64,000 bases of DNA from Gammaproteobacteria bacterium HGW-Gammaproteobacteria-1 (GTDB taxonomy: Bacteria > Pseudomonadota > Gammaproteobacteria > Thiohalomonadales > Thiohalomonadaceae), in contig PGZL01000002.1 of assembly GCA_002840095.1 (NCBI GenBank), forward strand, positions 31,872 to 95,871. Reading direction: 5' to 3'. Below are positions 13,500-49,135 of this stretch, one piece after another. The notes below the pieces were generated by a model, which ran no database searches, was not told where the DNA came from, and saw only the letters and a program-made list of their open reading frames with translations. The first letter of the stretch is position 1. Each line of letters begins with the position of its first letter. The position numbers and the translations under genes were made by a program.

Positions 13500-14849
13500 A
13501 TGACCAAGCACTACGATCTGATCGCCATCGGCGCCGGCAGCGGCGGTCTCTCCGCCGCAGAGCGTGCCGCACTGCACGGCAAGAAGGCCGCCGTCATCGA
13601 GGCCGGCCGCGTCGGCGGCACCTGCGTCAACGTCGGCTGCGTGCCGAAGAAGGTGATGTGGAACGCCGCGGGCATCGCCGGCGCCCTGCGCGACGCCAAC
13701 GATTACGGCTTCGACGTGCTGGTCAACGACTTCGACTGGAACCAGCTGGTGACCTCGCGCGAGCGCTACATCCAGAACATCAACGACTGGTACGGCGGCT
13801 ACCTCAAGGAGTCGGGCATCGATCTGATCCCGGGCTACGCCCGCTTCGTCGACCGGCGCACGCTGGAAGTGGACGGCAAGCGCTACAGCGCCGACCACAT
13901 CGTGGTCGCCCCCGGCGGCGTACCGCTGATCCCGGCCATTCCCGGCGCCGAGCACGGCATCAACTCCGACGGCTTCTTCGCCCTGCGCGAGCAACCCAAA
14001 CGGGTGGCGGTGGTGGGCGGCGGCTACATCGCGGTGGAACTGGCCGGCCTGCTCAAGGGCCTCGGCAGCGACGTGGACCTGCTGCTGCGCCGGCAACACT
14101 TCCTCGGCAACTTCGACGCCATGCTGCGCGAGACGCTGATGGAGGAAATGATCAATCACGGCGTCAACATCCTGCCCAACATCAATGTCGAACGGGTGGA
14201 GAAAGACGACGACGGCCGCCTCACCCTGCATTGCTCCGGCGGCCACACCCTCACCGGCTTCGACACCCTGGTCTGGGCCATCGGCCGCGCCCCCAACACC
14301 GCCGACCTCAACCTGGATAGCGTCGGCGTCGAACACGACGATAACGGCTATATCCCCACCGACGAATATCAGAACACCAATGTGGCCGGCATTTACGCCG
14401 TGGGCGACGTCACCGGCCGCGCCCAGCTGACGCCGGTGGCCATCGCCGCCGCGCGCCGCCTCGGCGACCGCCTGTTCGGCGGCCAGCCGGAACGCAAGCT
14501 GGACTACGAAAACATTCCCACCGTGGTGTTCAGCCACCCGCCCATCGGCACCGTCGGCCTGTCCGAGGACGAGGCGCGGGCGCTGCACGGCGAGGCGGTC
14601 AAGGTGTACCAGACCCGTTTCACGCCCATGGTCCACGCCTTCACCCGCCACGGTTCGAAGACGGCGATGAAACTGGTGTGCGTCGGTACCCAGGAAAAGA
14701 TCGTCGGCGTCCACATCATCGGCCACGGCGCCGACGAAATGCTGCAGGGCTTCGCCGTGGCGCTGAAGATGGGCGCCCACAAGCGCGACTTCGACAACAC
14801 CGTCGCGCTGCATCCAACCAGCGCCGAAGAACTGGTCACCATGCGGTAA
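13500..14849 (+). CDS. gor: Glutathione-disulfide reductase
   Basis: A flavoenzyme that keeps glutathione reduced using NADPH. The 449-residue product contains the FAD-binding GAGSGG (11-16), the redox-active disulfide Cys42/Cys47 in [13 protein letters not shown], a second Rossmann motif [12 protein letters not shown] followed by arginines (LLLRRQ) as expected for NADPH, and the C-terminal [12 protein letters not shown] that provides the active-site His-Glu pair. Start ATG with 'aagga' 7 bp upstream. Transcribed alone; a half repeat and a palindrome follow its stop. Confidence 0.95.
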
Positions 14850-14883: not shown

Positions 14884-14911
14884 ATGGCCCCCAAACGGAG
14901 GAAACAGAACA

Positions 14912-14996
14912 TCCAACGCAGAGACGCAAAGACGCAGAGAAAATCATGGAATGGCGTTTCTCTGCGTCCTCTGCGCCTTTGCGTCTCTGCGTTGGA
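14912..14996. repeat. Intergenic word palindrome (tccaacgcagagacgc / gcgtctctgcgttgga)
   Basis: The left arm from 14912 ('tccaacgcagagacgcaaag') and the right arm ending at 14996 ('tttgcgtctctgcgttgga') are close reverse complements about 33 bp long, with a loop of about 14 bp. The EAL remnant begins 18 bp further on. Relatives occur at 35068, 37264, 47680 and 48988. Confidence 0.85.
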
Positions 14997-15014
14997 TTTA
15001 TTCCTTTCTAAACG

Positions 15015-17514: not shown

Positions 17515-17630
17515 ACAAGTTTCAAGTGACAAGTGACAAGCGAATGAGCTCGCTGCGCTCGTGCTGTTTTGAATTCAAACGAGCATGCGCGTAGCGCATT
17601 CCTCCGCTTGTAACTTGTCACTTGAAATTT
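17515..17630. repeat. Intergenic word palindrome (acaagtttcaagtgacaag / cttgtcacttgaaat)
   Basis: The left arm 17515-17542 iterates 'acaagt'; the right arm 17605-17630 iterates 'acttgt'. The loop of about 62 bp contains smaller inverted repeats (gcgcgtagcgc). The outer flank 'gcagat' matches the family boundary. Confidence 0.8.
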
Positions 17631-17644
17631 GCGACCGGTTGGCT

Positions 17645-20855: not shown

Positions 20856-22094
20856 ATGAATGGCCACGACAATGGAATGACGGCGGGGGGCAACGGCACG
20901 GCTGTGGCCATGCCCTACGCGGTCGAACTGAGCCGCTGGAGCGGCGAGTTCGTCGATCCCGCGGCCGAGGACGCCTTCGGCGAGCACGTGGGCGACGCCG
21001 ATCGGCGCAATTTCGTCATCGCCCTGTTCGTGACCGGGCCGCTGTATTTCTCCTTCGTCATTTCCGACTATCTCCTGCTCGGCTTCGAGGCGTTGTTCTG
21101 GGTCAATGCCGTGCTGCGCCTCCTGGTACTGGTGTTCTGCTGGGGACTGGGTTACGCGCTGTTGCGCCGCCCGATCATGCCGCCGCGACTCTACCGCCTG
21201 TCCCTGTTGTTCTTTTTCGTGGTGCTGGGCAACGCCCTGGTGTTGTACCCGGTCAGCCAGCGCGAGTTTCTGGAAATCTATCCCGGCCTGCTGGTGATGC
21301 TGGTGGGGGCGTTCTTCTTCGTGCCCAGCCGGCTGGCCGACCGCCTGCTGGCGACGGTGTTCGCCCTGGTGGGCCTGGGCATTGAAACCCTGCTGTTCTT
21401 TCCGCCCGAGCGGCAGCAGTTGCCGCTGGCCATCCTGTTCTTCGTGGTGACCCTGGTGTTCTGCGTGGTCACCTCGGTGCAGCATGCGCGCCTGCGCCGC
21501 TTTTCCTTCATCGACTCGGTGCACAGCCGTCACCTGACGACCCTGCTGCAGCAGGAGGTGAGCCTGCGCCGCCAGTTGGAGGACGCGGCGCGCCAGCAGG
21601 CGCGCACCGACGAGCTGACCGGCCTGCCCAACCGGCGCCGTTTCTTTGAACTGGCCGAGCGGGAAATGGTGCGGGCGCAGCGCTACAGCTCGCCGCTGGC
21701 GGTGGTGATGCTGGACCTGGACCACTTCAAGGAAATCAACGACAACTACGGCCATGCCGCCGGCGATCAGGTGCTGCGCGCGGTGGGCGACTGCTGCCGC
21801 GACGTGCTGCGTACCAACGACGTAATCGGCCGGCTGGGCGGGGAAGAGTTCGCCATTCTGCTGCCGGCCACCGCCATGGACGGGGCGCGGCTGTTCGCCG
21901 AACGCCTGCGCGAGGCCGTCTACGAATGCCGCATCGGCCTGCCCGGCACGGAGCTGCGCCTGACCGCCACCCTGGGCGTGGCGGCCTGTGCGCCGGGCGA
22001 AGTGGTGACCGTGGACGAACTGCTGGCCCGCGCCGATGCCGCGCTGTATCGCGGCAAGGCGGCGGGACGCAATCGGGTGGAAGGACAATCTTAG
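20856..22094 (+). CDS. Membrane diguanylate cyclase (GGDEF) with inhibitory site
   Basis: A 412-residue c-di-GMP synthase. A soluble N-terminus of about 50 residues is followed by about six membrane helices (about 52-205), a coiled-coil linker and the GGDEF domain (about 250-412). Motifs: DELTGLPNRRRFFE, LDLDHFKEINDNYGHAAGD and the active loop GGEEF. Unlike the enzyme at 11470-12636 it keeps the product-inhibition site: RTND lies exactly five residues before GGEEF. The stop codon borders the gtttcga array. Confidence 0.91.
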   Translation: MNGHDNGMTAGGNGTAVAMPYAVELSRWSGEFVDPAAEDAFGEHVGDADRRNFVIALFVTGPLYFSFVISDYLLLGFEALFWVNAVLRLLVLVFCWGLGYALLRRPIMPPRLYRLSLLFFFVVLGNALVLYPVSQREFLEIYPGLLVMLVGAFFFVPSRLADRLLATVFALVGLGIETLLFFPPERQQLPLAILFFVVTLVFCVVTSVQHARLRRFSFIDSVHSRHLTTLLQQEVSLRRQLEDAARQQARTDELTGLPNRRRFFELAEREMVRAQRYSSPLAVVMLDLDHFKEINDNYGHAAGDQVLRAVGDCCRDVLRTNDVIGRLGGEEFAILLPATAMDGARLFAERLREAVYECRIGLPGTELRLTATLGVAACAPGEVVTVDELLARADAALYRGKAAGRNRVEGQS

Positions 22095-22190
22095 TTTCGA
22101 GTTTCGAGTTTCGAGTTTCGAGTTTCGAGTTTCGAGTTCGGCATGACTGTGCCCGGGTTTTCGAAACCCGAAACCCGCAACTCGAAACTG
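22094..22190. repeat. Tandem 7-mer array and palindrome (gtttcga / tcgaaac)
   Basis: Six perfect copies of 'gtttcga' run from 22094 to 22135. A right arm with 'ttttcgaaacccgaaaccc' and 'ctcgaaact' completes the palindrome at 22190. It touches the GGDEF stop and ends 4 bp before the trhP stop. Confidence 0.85.
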
Positions 22191-26000: not shown

Positions 26001-26076
26001 GACAGGATGAACAAGATTACACAGGATTAACAAGATGTTTATCTTGTGCATCGTGAGCAATCTTGTTCATCTTGTC
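26001..26076. repeat. Intergenic word palindrome (gacaggatgaacaagatt / aatcttgttcatcttgtc)
   Basis: The left arm starts at 26001 and the right arm ends at 26076; the outer 18 bases pair with one mismatch. It lies within the hslV-hslU operon. Confidence 0.85.
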
Positions 26077-27979: not shown

Positions 27980-28119
27980 GTCCGCGAATAAACGCAAATG
28001 GACGCGAATTTACTGAGCCAACAACGGGTGGGCCGGTAATGCGGTGTTCCCCGGCGGGTGAACAGGCAATCTCTGAAACGTGCATGAATATTTGCGTTTA
28101 TTGGCGTTCATTTGCGGAC
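27980..28119. repeat. Intergenic palindrome (gtccgcgaataaacgcaaat / atttgcggac)
   Basis: The outer arms pair from 27980 ('gtccgcgaataaacgcaaat') to 28119 ('gcgttcatttgcggac'). The interior shares the order 'cgggtgaac', 'catgaatatt' with 24298-24433. It lies between the DUF971 gene and ubiE. Confidence 0.82.
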
Positions 28120-28148
28120 TGAGCTGGATTATTACGACGGAGCAAGAG

Positions 28149-30019: not shown

Positions 30020-30149
30020 ACTCTCGCCAAGACGCCAAGGACGCAAAGAAAACAGAACAGCCGGCGCTGTTTCCGCTTCCCTCGCCGGTGACAACTTCGG
30101 TGTGACAGGCTCTCGGGTTTCTTGGCGGCCTTGGCGTCTTGGCGAGAGT
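30020..30149. repeat. Intergenic word palindrome (actctcgccaagacgccaag / cttggcgtcttggcgagagt)
   Basis: The outermost 20 bases at each end (30020-30039 and 30130-30149) are perfect reverse complements. The loop is about 70 bp. It separates ubiJ from ubiB. Confidence 0.9.
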
Positions 30150-35067: not shown

Positions 35068-35162
35068 CAACGCAGAGGCGCAGAGACGCAGAGAAAAAGG
35101 AGAGACTATGAATTCGATCCTGAATTTCTCTGTGCCCTCCGCGCCTCTGCGTCTCTGCGTTG
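35068..35162. repeat. Intergenic word palindrome (caacgcagaggcgcagagac / gtctctgcgttg)
   Basis: The left arm is 35068-35095 and the right arm about 35130-35162. It lies between yhcC and ubiU. Confidence 0.88.
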
Positions 35163-36210: not shown

Positions 36211-36287
36211 TCTCGCCAAGTGCGCCAAGGCCGCCAAGAAAACAATTCTGAAAAGCCTTTCTTGGCGCACTTGGCGTCTTGGCGAGA
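36211..36287. repeat. Intergenic word palindrome (tctcgccaagtgcgccaag / cttggcgcacttggcg)
   Basis: The left arm starts at 36211 and the right arm ends at 36287 ('gtcttggcgaga'). It separates ubiU from ubiV. Confidence 0.88.
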
Positions 36288-37263: not shown

Positions 37264-37339
37264 CAACGCAGAGACGCGGAGGCGCAGAGAAAACCCAGAG
37301 TAAGGCTGTGTTCTCTGCGTCCTCTGCGCCTCTGCGTTG
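37264..37339. repeat. Intergenic word palindrome (caacgcagagacgcgg / tctgcgcctctgcgttg)
   Basis: Located between the converging ubiV and ubiT stops. Left arm 37264-37292, right arm about 37310-37339. Confidence 0.87.
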
Positions 37340-44020: not shown

Positions 44021-44043
44021 GCCGGTACGTCAAAAGCCTTCAG

Positions 44044-44194
44044 CGCAAAGGCGCAAAGGACGCAAAGAGCGCAAAGGATCTTGGTGTTAGTGTGGGAGCT
44101 TGGCTATGCCGGCTGATAACAGTCAGTCCGGCGTCGTTTCCCGTAGGTGAGCAGTAAACCCCTTTGCGTTCTTTGCGGCCTTTGCGTCTTTGCG
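44044..44194. repeat. Empty word palindrome (cgcaaagg / ctttgcg)
   Basis: The left arm 44044-44078 iterates 'cgcaaagg'. The right arm about 44162-44194 reads 'ctttgcgttctttgcggcc' and continues 'tttgcgtctttgcg'. The loop is about 80 bp without a gene. The right arm matches that of the gene-bearing element at 46594-47061 with one difference. Confidence 0.88.
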
Positions 44195-44210
44195 TTTAAG
44201 AGATCATTCC

Positions 44211-44897: not shown

Positions 44898-44964
44898 GAC
44901 AGGATTAACAAGATGTACAAGATGAAGGCCGTACCGGTATCCTGTACATCTTGTTAATCCTGTC
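44898..44964. repeat. Intergenic palindrome with a 22-bp perfect stem
   Basis: 'gacaggattaacaagatgta' plus 'ca' (44898-44919) is exactly complementary to 44943-44964; the loop is 23 bp. It follows gph by 12 bp. The trpE leader (44965-45105) shows no attenuator-like Trp-rich peptide. Confidence 0.92.
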
Positions 44965-45105: not shown

Positions 45106-46590
45106 ATGACTCCACAACGTTTCGCCGAACTCGCCTCCCAGGGCTACAACCGCATACCCGTCGCACGCGAGGTCCTCGCCGATCTCGACACGCCGCTGTC
45201 CACCTATCTCAAGCTGGCCAACGCGCCGTACTCCTATCTGTTCGAGTCGGTGCAGGGCGGCGAGAAATGGGGCCGCTACTCCATCATCGGCCTGCCCTGC
45301 CGCACCATCGTGCGCGTGCGCGGCCACGACATCGACGTGGAGCACGACGGCGCCGTCGTAGAGAGCGAAACCGTCACCGATCCTCTGGCCTGGATCGAAC
45401 AGTTCCAGCTGCGCTACAAGGTGGCCTGCGGGCCGGGCGAGCCGCGCTTCAACGGCGGCCTGGTCGGCTACTTCGGTTACGACACCGTGCGCTACATCGA
45501 GCCGCGCCTCGGCCCCTGTCCCAACACCGACGAAATGGGCGTGCCGGACGTGATGCTGATGGTGTCCGACGAGGTGGTGGTATTCGACAACCTGGGCGGC
45601 AAGCTGCATGTCATCGTCCACGCCGACCCGGCACAGCAGAATGCCCTCGCCACCGCGCAGCAGCGCCTCGAACAGCTTGTCGCCCAGCTGCGCGGCCCGC
45701 TGCCGGCGCGGCCGGCCACGACACCGCATCAGGTGACCGAGCAGGACTTCGTCTCCGGCTTCACCCAGCACGGTTTCGAGGAGGCGGTGCGCAAATCGAA
45801 GGAGTACATCGTCGACGGCGACATCATGCAGGTGGTGCTGTCGCAGCGATTGTCGATTCCCTTCTACGCTCCGTCGCTGGACCTGTACCGTTCGCTGCGC
45901 AGCCTCAATCCCTCGCCCTACATGTTCTACCTGGACCTCGACGGCTTCGAGGTGGTGGGCTCCTCGCCGGAGATCCTCACCCGCTGCGAAGACGGCAAGG
46001 TGACGGTGCGTCCCATCGCCGGCACGCGGCCGCGCGGCAAGTCGGAGGAAGAGGACAAGGCGCTGGAGGTAGACCTGCTGGCCGACCCGAAGGAAATCGC
46101 CGAGCACCTTATGCTCATCGACCTGGGCCGCAACGACGTCGGCCGCATCGCCGAGACCGGCAGCGTCGAGCTCACCGAGAAGATGGTGATCGAGCGCTAT
46201 TCCCACGTGATGCACATCGTCTCCAACGTGGAGGGCCGGCTGAAGGCCGGCATGAGCGCCATGGATGCCCTGCGCGCCACCTTCCCGGCCGGCACCGTGT
46301 CCGGCGCCCCGAAGATCCGTGCCATGGAGATCATCGACGAACTGGAGCCGGTGAAGCGCGGCGTCTACGCCGGTGCGGTGGGCTACCTGGCCTGGAACGG
46401 CAACATGGATACCGCCATCGCCATCCGCACCGCGGTGGTCAAGGAAGGCACGCTCTACATGCAGGCCGGCGCCGGCATCGTCTACGACTCGGTGCCGCGC
46501 AACGAGTGGGACGAGACCATGAACAAGAGCCGTGCCATTTTCCGTGCCGCCACCCTGGCCGAGGCAGGGTTGGACAGCCCGAAAAGATAA
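45106..46590 (+). CDS. trpE: Anthranilate synthase component I
   Basis: Makes anthranilate from chorismate with ammonia from TrpG. The 494-residue product has the N-terminal feedback-site region ([22 protein letters not shown]-like), [16 protein letters not shown], and the C-terminal chorismate-binding core with [45 protein letters not shown] and [19 protein letters not shown]. Complete. The partner gene trpG is 481 bp downstream, beyond an inserted element. Confidence 0.97.
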
Positions 46591-46593
46591 GAG

Positions 46594-47061
46594 TTAAACG
46601 CAAAGACGCAAAGGACGCGAAGATCGCAAAGGAATGTGATGGACGAGAATGGGTTATCAAAGGTGATTATCGGTGCCGCCATCGAGGTGCACCGGTTTCT
46701 GGGGCCCGGTTTGCTGGAGAACGTGTATCGGCAATGTCTCGCCCAAGAGTTGGGATTACTCGGCATCCGGGTGGCGCAGGAGGTTCCGATTTCCGCCAGC
46801 TACAAGGGCGCCGATGTGGACCTGGCGTATCGCTTGGATATGTTGGTGGCTGACAGGGTGGTGGTTGAACTTAAGGTCGTAGAGCAGCTGCAAAAGATTC
46901 ACGAGGCCCAGTTGCTTTCCTATCTGCGACTGAGCGGTAAACGGCTCGGGCTATTGATCAACTTCAATGTGACTCAGTTGCGCGGTGGCATTCGGCGTGT
47001 GGTGAATGGACTTTAAATGACAACTTTGCGTTCTTTGCGGTCTTTGCGTCTTTGCGTTTAA
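46594..47061. mobile_element. Gene-bearing inverted-repeat element (GxxExxY cargo)
   Basis: The left arm 46594-46634 ('taaacgcaaagacgcaaagg' onward) and right arm 47022-47061 (ending 'tttgcgtctttgcgttta') are reverse complements over about 40 bp with few mismatches. Between them lies one complete gene (46639-47016), which nearly fills the loop. The insertion separates trpE from trpG, normally adjacent. No flanking target duplication is obvious. An empty element with almost the same right arm lies at 44044-44194. Confidence 0.7.
46639..47016 (+). CDS. GxxExxY protein (PD-(D/E)xK nuclease-like)
   Basis: A 125-residue protein. The family-defining GPGLLENVY (GxxExxY) lies near residue 22. AYRLDMLVADRVVVELKVVE provides the D-(x)n-ExK pattern of a PD-(D/E)xK nuclease core, and HEAQLLSYLRLSGKRLGLLINFNV is the conserved C-terminal block. 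The biological role is undetermined. The ATG at 46639 follows 'aagga' in the left arm itself, so the repeat supplies the ribosome-binding site. It sits in the loop of the inverted repeat and splits the trp operon. Confidence 0.88.
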   Translation: MDENGLSKVIIGAAIEVHRFLGPGLLENVYRQCLAQELGLLGIRVAQEVPISASYKGADVDLAYRLDMLVADRVVVELKVVEQLQKIHEAQLLSYLRLSGKRLGLLINFNVTQLRGGIRRVVNGL

Positions 47062-47071
47062 GGGGTTTGCC

Positions 47072-47668
47072 ATGCTGCTGATGATCGACAACTACGACTC
47101 CTTCACCTACAACCTGGTGCAGTATTTCGCCGAGTTGGGGGCCGAGGTTCAGGTACACCGCAACGATCAGATCACGGTGGCGGAGATCGAGGCGCTGGCG
47201 CCGCGGCACCTGGTGGTGTCGCCGGGGCCGTGCTCGCCCACCGAGGCGGGCATCTCGGTGGCGGCGATACAGCACTTCGCCGGCAAGCTGCCGATCCTGG
47301 GCGTGTGTCTCGGCCACCAGTCCATCGGCCAGGCCTTCGGCGGCAACATCGTGCATGCGCGCGAAATCATGCACGGCAAGACCTCGCCGATTTATCACAG
47401 CGACGTGGGCGTGTTTCACGGCCTGGACAATCCGTTCCAGGCCACGCGCTATCATTCCCTGGTGATCGAGCAGGCCTCCATTCCGTCCTGCCTGGAGGTC
47501 ACGGCCTGGACCCAGCATGTCGATGGCGGTCGGGACGAAATCATGGGCGTGCGTCATCGCGAGTTCGTCATCGAGGGTGTGCAGTTCCATCCCGAGTCGA
47601 TACTCACCCGTCACGGCCACGACCTGCTGCGCAACTTCCTGGCCATGCAGGGCGGGCGGCGGGCTTAA
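47072..47668 (+). CDS. trpG: Anthranilate synthase component II (glutamine amidotransferase)
   Basis: Supplies ammonia to TrpE (and possibly to PabB). 198 residues. [19 protein letters not shown], the oxyanion region [12 protein letters not shown], the nucleophile cysteine in [15 protein letters not shown], and the catalytic His-Glu in FHPESILT are all present. The start lies 10 bp after the right arm of the inserted element. Confidence 0.96.
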
Positions 47669-47679
47669 CCCCCCTTTGT

Positions 47680-47752
47680 CGCTGAGACGCGGAGACGCAG
47701 AGCAGGACTATTTGTTTCATCCTCGACACTCCGCGTTTCCGCGCCTCTGCGG
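47680..47752. repeat. Degenerate word palindrome (gagacgcggagacgcagag / ctctgcgg)
   Basis: The left arm is 47680-47702 and the right arm 'ctccgcgtttccgcgcctct' begins near 47730. It is less perfect than its relatives. Confidence 0.65.
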
Positions 47753-47778: not shown

Positions 47779-48987
47779 GTGCCGAATCCAGGCGCCCCTG
47801 CGGCGCACCACCCTTTGTTCATCGCCCTTATCGCCGCGTCGCTGTCGATGCTGGCGCCGTTCACCATCGATACCTACCTGCCGTCGTTTCCGGCCATCGC
47901 CGCCGATCTCGGCGCCTCCCATGTGCAGATGCAGCAGACCATGGGGCTGTACCTGGCCGCTTTCGCCCTGACCACGCTGATTTACGGCCCGCTGTCGGAT
48001 ACCTTCGGCCGCCGCCCGGTGATCATCGGCGCCCTGGCGCTGTATGTGGCGGGCAGTATCGGCGCCGCCCTGACCGCCTCCATCGACGGCCTGCTGTTCT
48101 GGCGCGTAGTGCAGGGACTGTCGGCCGGGGCCGGCGTGGTGGTGGGCCGGGCCATGGTGCGTGACGTGTTCAGCGGCCACCATGCCCAGCGGGTGCTGTC
48201 CCAGGCCATGCTGATCTTCGCCGTGGCGCCGGCCATCGCGCCGATGATCGGCGGCGTGTTGCAGGACTGGTCCGGCTGGCGTTCCGTGTTCTGGTTTCTC
48301 GCCCTGCTCGGGCTGGGGGTGCTGGCGCTCATCGCCTGGCGCGCCCCCGAAACCCTGGCGAAGGAGGGGCGCCACTCCATCCACCCGGCGAAAGTGGCCG
48401 CCGCCTACGCCATGGCGTTGCGGCACGGCCGTTTCATGGGGCTGGTGCTGGCCTTTGCCTTCAATTTCGGCGCCTTCTTCATCTACATCGCCGCCGCGCC
48501 GACGCTGTTGTACGAGCACCTGCACCTGGGCACCAACGATTTCTGGATGCAGTTCGTGCCCATGGTGGGCGGCCTGATGCTGGGTTCCTACACCATGAGC
48601 CGCCTGGCCGGGCGGATCACGCCGCGGCGCGGCATCGGCATCGGTTACGTGCTGATGATCGGCGCCAGCCTCTGCAACGTGCTGCAGGCGCTGCTGCTGC
48701 CGCCGGCGCCGGTCAACGTGCTGGCGCCCCTGGTGCTGTATGCCTTTGCGGTGTCGTTCAGCATGCCCAATCTCACCGTGCTGGCGCTGGACTGCTTTCC
48801 GCGCAACCGCGGCATGGCGGCGGCGGTGCAGTCCTTCCTGCAGGTGGGCTTCAACGCCTTGGTCGCCGGTCTGCTGGTGCCGCTGCTGGCACATCACGTG
48901 TGGGCCATGGCGCTGGGTATGCTGGGCCTGGCGTGTGCCGGTCTTGTGGTCTGGGGCTGGCAGGAGCGCCAAACCCCCAACATCTGA
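47779..48987 (+). CDS. Bcr/CflA-family drug efflux MFS transporter
   Basis: A 402-residue proton-driven exporter with 12 membrane helices. The Bcr/CflA group is indicated by IDTYLPSFPAIAADLGASHVQMQQTM, the motif-A loop GPLSDTFGRRPVIIG and RAMVRDVFSG in helix 4-5. The substrate is unknown (relatives export bicyclomycin, chloramphenicol or sulfonamides). GTG at 47779 with 'ggag' upstream is preferred; a TTG four codons earlier is possible. It lies between trpG and trpD, bounded by two palindromes, and is not expected in a trp operon. Confidence 0.88.
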   Translation: MPNPGAPAAHHPLFIALIAASLSMLAPFTIDTYLPSFPAIAADLGASHVQMQQTMGLYLAAFALTTLIYGPLSDTFGRRPVIIGALALYVAGSIGAALTASIDGLLFWRVVQGLSAGAGVVVGRAMVRDVFSGHHAQRVLSQAMLIFAVAPAIAPMIGGVLQDWSGWRSVFWFLALLGLGVLALIAWRAPETLAKEGRHSIHPAKVAAAYAMALRHGRFMGLVLAFAFNFGAFFIYIAAAPTLLYEHLHLGTNDFWMQFVPMVGGLMLGSYTMSRLAGRITPRRGIGIGYVLMIGASLCNVLQALLLPPAPVNVLAPLVLYAFAVSFSMPNLTVLALDCFPRNRGMAAAVQSFLQVGFNALVAGLLVPLLAHHVWAMALGMLGLACAGLVVWGWQERQTPNI

Positions 48988-49045
48988 CGCAGAGACGCAG
49001 AGTTTTTTTGAGCAAGCAATCCCTCTGTGTCTCCGCGTCTCTGCG
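48988..49045. repeat. Short word palindrome (cgcagagacgcagag / ctccgcgtctctgcg)
   Basis: The arms are 48988-49002 and about 49023-49045. A run of seven T (49003-49009) after the left arm could assist termination of the MFS gene. Confidence 0.75.
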
Positions 49046-49135
49046 GCGGGTTTCTAATTTGCTCGCTTGACCGCGGCAGGGGTGGCACGGACAATCCCCG
49101 CTGTTTATTACGGCACGAACCAAGGGTTTAGAATC

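Follow-up and report, generated by a model that had tools for sequence, protein, structure and literature searches.

Homing elements are built on nuclease lineages that keep to one site across species, and their sites are found empty, filled and re-filled. RAYT proteins are HUH Y1 transposases, and REP/BIME sequences are short palindromes that occur genome-wide. MITEs and Ac/Ds-type pairs comprise one gene-bearing copy and many gene-less copies with common ends. The sole near relation that we found in a broader literature search is the intervening sequence of 23S rRNA. In the part of PMC4990558 available to us, the intervening sequence of Coxiella is described as an ORF in the loop of a stem, with GACAGAT heptamers in the arm and excision by RNase III. 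The same part describes intervening sequences as patchily distributed, with mobility suspected earlier and with origin and function unsettled (PMC4990558). Literature searches by family name, which had most subscription journals and all preprints outside their scope, found no published link of GxxExxY, PDDEXK_3 or PF13366 to palindromes and no described function of the GxxExxY family.

Here we describe a 468-bp unit, arms and gene together, at positions 46594-47061 of the window, which is the whole 64-kb stretch of DNA that was analysed. With a probability of about 55%, this unit is a homing-like small mobile element with a predicted nuclease gene and with non-autonomous gene-less relatives. 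Its two inverted arms are 38 nt each, 89% complementary and spaced by 392 nt, and enclose a GxxExxY gene exactly where the initial annotation had placed it within 'cgcaaag'-word arms of about 40 bp (Table 1). The window has 102 inverted pairs with arms less than 1 kb apart, and this pair came second in the list. Word matches in the window numbered 22 compared to 0.87 in shuffles. The left arm had also been proposed to supply the ribosome-binding site, and in the window element an AAAGGA motif read by eye does overlap the inner end of that arm, five bases from the ATG. A Shine-Dalgarno-like motif was present in 35 of 77 elements with an in-frame start, so an arm-supplied ribosome-binding site is not general. 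The unit splits trpE from trpG, again as annotated. Its protein matched TIGR04256 (GxxExxY) with 143 bits (E 4.8e-42, cut-off 35, model positions 2-116 of 116) and PF13366 (PDDEXK_3), the sole Pfam match, with 139 bits against a cut-off of 22. The source genome (G000) has three GxxExxY loci, all between inverted words, and the words differ among them (CGCCAAG, CGCAAAG and ACAAGATGA).

Table 1. Coordinates of the element, its host genes and the gene-less palindromes of the window
Feature	Position	Strand	Remarks
Left arm	46594..46631	+	four CGCAAAG/CGCGAAG words; outer end TTAAACGC
Shine-Dalgarno-like AAAGGA	46628..46633	+	overlaps left arm's inner end; read by eye
GxxExxY gene, predicted PD-(D/E)xK nuclease-like protein, 125 or 126 aa	46639..47016	+	ATG start at 46639; alternative GTG 46636
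Right arm	47024..47061	+	outer end GCGTTTAA
trpE, upstream host gene outside element	45106..46590	+	stop 46588-46590; name by eye
trpG, downstream host gene outside element	47072..47668	+	start 47072; name by eye
Gene-less palindrome, element's own arm family	44038..44200		best arm match 71
Gene-less palindrome, 9-nt words, ACAAGATGA family	146..225		matches arms of GxxExxY element L003, same genome
Gene-less palindrome, CGCCAAG words	8692..8762		matches L001; region empty in G001
Gene-less palindrome, CGCAGAG/CGCAAAG words	14911..14997		scan and arm match
Gene-less palindrome, CGCAAATGAACGCGAATGGACGC words	24299..24445		matches GxxExxY element L025 of congener G003; empty in G001
Gene-less palindrome, ACAGGATTA/ACAAGATGA words	26001..26076		scan and arm match
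Gene-less palindrome, 10-nt words	27980..28122		empty in G002
Gene-less palindrome, CGCCAAG words	30020..30149		G003: CGCAGAG/CGCCGAG in both arms there
Gene-less palindrome, CGCAGAG words	35068..35162		mostly absent in G002
Gene-less palindrome, CGCCAAG words	36211..36287		scan and arm match
Gene-less palindrome, CGCAGAG words	37264..37339		G003: CGCAAAG words there and second palindrome nested in loop
Gene-less palindrome, 10-nt words	40422..40559		matches L025; empty in G001
Gene-less palindrome, ACAGGATTA/ACAAGATGT words	44898..44964		empty in G001 and G003
Gene-less palindrome, CGCAGAG words	47675..47752		added by hand
Gene-less palindrome, CGCAGAG words	48987..49046		added by hand; region empty in G001, G002
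Gene-less palindrome, sister class, 7-nt words TTCAAGG	5280..5364		matches PF05635 locus L136
Gene-less palindrome, sister class, 7-nt words	17516..17631		scan and arm match
Gene-less palindrome, sister class, 7-nt words AGTTTCG	22093..22189		weakest match, score 24
Gene-less palindrome, sister class, 7-nt words	27439..27555		matches L150
Gene-less palindrome, sister class, 7-nt words	50957..51050		matches L152

Each of the known systems resembles this element in part. The 23S intervening sequence with S23p (PF05635), as far as it is described in the available part of PMC4990558, is likewise a short palindromic insert, whose loop contains a single small ORF and whose arms have tandem words. 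The window element has this palindromic stem with an ORF in its loop; it lies between trpE and trpG and not in 23S rRNA, and encodes PF13366 instead of PF05635. More generally, the intervening sequences have another protein family and 7-nt words as opposed to the 8-10 nt of GxxExxY elements, and those known are located in rRNA and cut out of RNA, whereas the GxxExxY inserts are found between protein genes and show no RNA bias in their arms. Homing endonuclease elements likewise consist of lineages of a nuclease gene bound to one site, with sites empty, filled or re-filled, but the GxxExxY element differs from them by its palindromic word arms and its numerous gene-less relatives elsewhere. Genome-wide short palindromes and a rare gene-bearing partner are also a feature of REP/BIME with RAYT; in contrast, GxxExxY is a predicted PD-(D/E)xK protein and its arms are word arrays that vary between elements. 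No Y1 HUH transposase was found in the window element, whose only family matches were TIGR04256 and PF13366. As in MITEs and Ac/Ds, gene-bearing and many gene-less copies share their ends; unlike in those systems, no transposase was matched, no duplication was seen (at mostly 78-92% identity) and the cores are mostly not shared, few of the 17 gene-less palindromes having any internal sequence in common, as MITE or transposon copies do.

An AlphaFold model of the GxxExxY protein (pLDDT 94.6) was compared with solved structures. The best match was Cas4 SSO0001 (Z 9.5, 92 residues, 2.4 A), followed by lower matches to Hjc resolvase (Z 6.9), AdnAB, AddAB and lambda exonuclease, where Z values under 8 may reflect only a common arrangement. 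E27, D67, E77, K79 and Y95 were invariant in 78 of 78 sequences; the D and E-x-K of a PD-(D/E)xK core (D67, E77, K79) are among them, in agreement with the core named in the initial annotation, and a Q-x3-Y motif is present too. By this model the protein would be a nuclease similar to Cas4 and lambda exonuclease, and its catalytic core does not vary. Its best structural matches lie in the Cas4/RecB-type/lambda-exonuclease branch of PD-(D/E)xK proteins, from which it differs in being element-borne and only ~125 residues long. Cas4 has an iron-sulphur cluster; no cysteine is among the invariant GxxExxY columns, and hence there is no sign of a cluster of that type. Five same-site pairs gave dN/dS ratios of 0.04-0.28; in two of them one copy (L026, L030) carries stop codons, and dS was saturated in 7 of 13 same-site pairs. 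The predicted nuclease core is conserved without exception and is under selection. A role in the host could account for the purifying selection on GxxExxY and for its long retention.

GxxExxY loci from other genomes were collected in three samples. In the relatives sample, 16 of 56 genomes had a match and 30 loci were collected. In the phylum sample, 48 of 249 genomes matched, and the 30 loci fetched (L031-L060) are not independent because all came from one family, f64, and 17 were at one site. The third sample comprised 41 loci (L061-L101) from named genomes of several phyla (Bacteroidetes, Proteobacteria and Desulfobacterales, Acidobacteria, Chloroflexi, Planctomycetes, Ignavibacteria and Lentisphaerae). 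The upstream flank of each gene was aligned with the reverse-complemented downstream flank for 96 of the 101 loci, leaving out L018, which has no gene, and four with short flanks. The threshold score of 27 was reached by 81 of the 96 GxxExxY loci compared to 23 of 2248 windows of the same geometry from the same loci; the 99.9th percentile of the shuffles (n=960) was 30, and only 2 of 27 trpG flanks, used as a control, reached 27. This confirms that GxxExxY genes elsewhere are flanked by inverted words above background, as had been supposed. The first relatives set alone (28 of the 30 loci, L018 and L028 being excluded) gave 26 of 28 loci at or above 27, against 7 of 572 geometry windows and 0 of 280 shuffles. 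Swapped-partner pairs of this set reached 27 in 118 of 756 cases, a count inflated because some loci occupy the same site. By eye, eight of the 15 below-threshold loci have weak word arms and seven have none (L053, L065, L066, L072, L074, L075, L097); the latter could be decayed or domesticated copies. L068 was scored positive with arms of reversed polarity, maybe from adjacent gene-less palindromes. The 5' arm was purine-rich in 78 of 82 elements, and the median element length was 494.5 bp.

Genomes with GxxExxY are also richer in the words themselves. The median number of CRCRRAG word pairs was 36.5 in the 16 genomes with GxxExxY compared to 1 in the 40 without (p = 3e-4), and at least 10 pairs were found in 11/16 and 5/40 of them, respectively. 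G001, G002, G010, G040 and G047 have no GxxExxY yet at least 10 word pairs, and G006, G016, G044, G051 and G054 have GxxExxY yet at most 2, some of them carrying other words. A reversed-pattern control is unclean, as tandem words fit the reversed pattern too: in G000 and G003 it gave about 110 per strand. By eye, the window and 213 kb of congener sequence held no complete word-armed gene-bearing pair with other cargo: among the 15 long-loop pairs listed there, the complete gene-bearing ones were two GxxExxY elements, and three with clear 7-nt words look like separate palindromes flanking a host gene. The family is nearly absent from plasmids, as tblastn with the window protein matched 7 of 72,556 plasmid records, and it matched 0 of 50,697 phage records; a phage or plasmid origin was rejected on these counts. 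A scan of viral contigs, which detects close relatives only, returned no relative. A GxxExxY protein has been reported in one algal virus (PMC12085832, in the part available).

The arms and the gene form one evolutionary unit. Across all pairs of 78 elements, arm similarity rose with protein identity (rho 0.42), and in the 2528 pairs from different host families, with those of L061-L101 labelled by hand, rho was 0.37; 0 of 500 permutations reached the observed correlation. At 60-70% protein identity, the mean arm score was 25.6 between families (97 pairs) and 27.8 within families (77 pairs). Since arm similarity at a given protein identity is about the same within and between families, the words travel with the protein and not with the host. 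The clearest case of arms and gene transferred alone is at trpD|trpC in G165 and G264 of family f64. The two elements are 93.2% identical and their synonymous difference is 0.15, compared to 0.65 in the flanking trpD and 0.56 in trpC. The stretch of 92-98% identity begins at the very end of trpD and includes both arms; it stops where the element stops, and identity drops back to ~77-85% in trpC. This is the one clear identity island among 148 same-site pairs, in which the element was mostly less conserved than its flanks (median -8 points); the L050/L055 value in this set is an alignment artefact (3 bases).

Sites of the element are occupied more than once, and empty sites exist. The trpE-trpG junction was read in three congeners (G001, G002 and G003), with G004 left out. 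The gap is 10 nt in G001 and G002, and G003 is filled like G000, which bears out the empty-site polymorphism that the initial annotation had asked for. The junction is also filled in G033, of another family, and G011 of that same family has a gene-less nested palindrome there. In G003 (L103), trpE beside its own GxxExxY insert is several codons shorter than in G000, G001 and G002. Yet another word insert is present at this junction in G020 (L130), where the trpE-trpG gap of 118 nt consists of repeats of the AAGTGAAATATTTT type. Aligned stretches of the window and the three congeners are mostly 78-92% identical, and at that identity of the nearest genomes neither a target-site duplication nor an exact insertion point was resolved. 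Several gene-less palindromes of the window have empty sites in congeners, and G003 has palindromes absent from the window. For trpD|trpC in f64, 30 loci were fetched of the 63 genomes with trpC. Among the 28 scorable ones, 18 had the GxxExxY gene or pieces of it and 10 had a gap of 0-27 nt, with no gene-less palindrome. At ribF|ileS among the relatives, the gene was present in 4 of 28 scorable loci; gene-less palindromes of the same word class occurred there in G011 and G013, one with 7-nt words in G000, and in G004 a gene-less palindrome recognised by eye that scored only 16. Many insertions lie between co-directional genes, and the neighbours confirmed by NCBIfam are trpD/trpC, ribF/ileS, leuD, glyQ/glyS, pyrB/pyrC, carA, sufB/sufC, ychF, cobQ and pheA/hisC.

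Lineages of the element tend to be faithful to a single site, which they also reach in other species. On a protein tree of 56 rows there were 16 changes of site label compared to 34.9 in shuffles, with 0 of 200 shuffles as low. Groups of 2-3 rows, one per site, were found for trpE|trpG, leuD, glyQ|glyS, pyrB|pyrC, sufB|sufC (weakly supported), ychF and cobQ, and ribF|ileS, present in several lineages, needs at least 3 gains or losses. Site-bound lineages reaching the same site in other genomes, as in homing, are thus seen both in the tree and in the one identity island. The trpE|trpG proteins of G000 and G003 are 57% identical, whereas another locus shared by these congeners (L001/L029) gives 96%, which rules out vertical inheritance alone for the trpE|trpG pair. 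The trpE|trpG copy of G000 groups with that of G033, of another family, and not with that of its congener (97/86). The G000/G003 pair is therefore better explained by a site-bound lineage that arrived separately in each genome than by a replacement. In two pairs of sister species, a different element occupies a conserved site: L008/L009, with flanks 94.6% and proteins 59% identical, and L045/L048, with 93.2% and 61%, the words differing in both pairs. Two other sites common to the L008/L009 genomes gave proteins 98% and 93% identical over 51 and 73 residues, spans that are short because one copy is broken. Outside its own arm, L008 has an apparent remnant arm of another word type (by eye). Truncated GxxExxY copies and copies with stop codons occur at further loci, as expected of turnover.

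The initial annotation had regarded gene-less palindromes as non-autonomous relatives of the element. A scan found 16 strong palindromes in the window, about one per 4 kb, with a best word period of 8-10 nt in 11 and of 7 nt in 5. These and four added by hand were compared with the arms of GxxExxY elements and with a library of PF05635 arms from 15 chosen loci. Fifteen of the 20, all with 8-10-nt words, matched GxxExxY arms with scores of 31-71 and PF05635 arms with at most 16. The other five, with 7-nt words, matched PF05635 arms with scores of 24-56 and GxxExxY arms with at most 17; the match of 22093-22189 (score 24) is marginal, since shuffles overall reach 25, its own shuffles reaching at most 19. 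When up to 3 mismatches are allowed, the outer 21 nt of the element's left arm occur 42 times in the genome, compared to 0 for the reversed control. Eighteen palindromes of this family were read, one being the element itself, and sixteen of them pair well (score at least 29). The 17 gene-less palindromes have similar arms, but their loops, 16-206 nt long, are mostly unrelated, and some contain other palindromes. Matches between loops were found only among L235/L244/L247/L258 and among L238/L252/L256, several being nested palindromes, and none of the 17 loops matched the loop of the element. The proposed kinship is therefore supported for the arms, which gene-bearing and gene-less copies have in common, but plain internal deletion of a gene-bearing copy as the origin of the gene-less ones is ruled out by the lack of a shared loop. 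A third palindrome family (GTGGGAGCCCGGCT...) recurs nested within the loops of L244, L247 and L258. The words of both arms differ at the same place between sister species at 30020-30149, 37264-37339 and 44024-44203 (compared with G003 or G001), as if both arms changed together or were replaced.

The 7-nt words belong to a second gene family. Genes of PF05635, the 23S rRNA intervening-sequence protein, lay inside inverted word arms at 16 of 26 loci (L132-L157, with L136 and L152 in G000), a set that was scored without a control set of its own and in which one gene is represented by two pieces, L154 and L156. The period of these arms was 7 or 14 in 14 of 16. In contrast, the best period of GxxExxY arms was 9, 10 and 8 in 34, 25 and 11 of 82, i.e. 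8-10 nt in 70 of 82.

The element sits in gaps within operons and is perhaps transcribed from the host operon. Read-through of the operon would make the nuclease, which may cut an empty junction or an extruded short-loop palindrome of its own word type. Host recombination would then repair the break from the resident element copy, so copying arms and gene, and incomplete or abortive repair would leave arms around unrelated filler as gene-less palindromes. With its arms ~400 bp apart, the gene-bearing form would extrude poorly as a cruciform and would therefore be protected. The weakest point of this nuclease mechanism is the 7-nt class, for whose spread no nuclease is known. Because PF05635, which has no known nuclease activity, occupies the sister class, a nuclease may not be needed for spread, and the GxxExxY and PF05635 proteins might only bind or protect their own palindromes.

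The element could also be an ordinary transposon, with the arms as terminal inverted repeats, GxxExxY as a transposase-like end-cutter and the gene-less copies moved in trans to new sites. This idea fits the empty sites in congeners, the co-variation of arms and protein, and the scattering of many gene-less copies whose arms are nearly identical. We consider it unlikely, however, as the gene-bearing copies cluster by site, the loops differ from copy to copy and no target duplication was seen, at the low resolution of mostly 78-92% identity. Moreover, ordinary insertion sequences are common on plasmids and phages, where tblastn with the window protein found hardly any GxxExxY. A distinctly doubtful proposal is that the palindromes spread by other means, such as replication slippage, template switching or RAYT-like or unknown enzymes, and that GxxExxY and PF05635 are cargo expressed or protected in the loop. 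Two unrelated gene families do occupy palindromes, the loops are variable pockets of which some hold other palindromes, and some word-rich genomes have no GxxExxY. Mere passengers would not, however, be expected to show the tie of word period to gene family, the specificity by which 20 of 20 window palindromes match the arms of one family and not of the other (one match being marginal), or the tracking of protein identity by arm similarity across host families.

An account at the RNA level appears improbable. Here, as in 23S rRNA intervening sequences, the arms would pair in the operon transcript, and the element would be tolerated because this stem is processed. In favour of it are the anatomy shared with the Coxiella sequence, an ORF in a stem loop with heptamer repeats and RNase III excision (PMC4990558, in the part available), and the position of many insertions between co-directional genes. 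Contrary to selected RNA pairing, arm mismatches on the sense strand of 82 elements showed no excess of G-U (82) over A-C (92, p = 0.50). Selection on an RNA stem is thus not supported, and we place the function of the arms at the DNA level. That any gene can fall between two palindromes by chance in a palindrome-rich genome, with a strong palindrome about every 4 kb of the window, is almost certainly wrong as a general account and is refuted by the 81 of 96 GxxExxY loci compared to the 23 of 2248 same-geometry controls. The reading that we prefer is that of a homing-like small mobile element.

Beyond this element, we tentatively suggest, at somewhat less than even odds, that word palindromes are a class of self-spreading bacterial DNA hairpins with at least two word-period 'languages', each read by its own loop-encoded protein: the GxxExxY nuclease for 8-10 nt and the four-helix-bundle S23p ring for 7 nt. 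Protein and words would co-evolve, both arms would drift jointly to new words, and 23S rRNA intervening sequences would be no more than the members of this class that happened to insert in rRNA. Many bacterial genomes contain short word palindromes that lack an explanation, and if the link is true, a single one would cover both them and the GxxExxY family. The element would then be a minimal one of ~500 bp, in which a nuclease replaces the transposase and which leaves intact the basic-metabolism operons that it occupies. A wider class would then also take in the rRNA intervening sequences, for which the available part of PMC4990558 describes both origin and function as unsettled. Protein-DNA recognition can be tested directly through the link of word period to protein family.

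Two further inserts were also seen. In G044 (L015), metH is split by a GxxExxY element between model positions 355 and 357 of 1234. In G001, L161 (~14031-14843) has a 22-nt inverted repeat around an ORF that by eye resembles a Y1 (RAYT-like) transposase.
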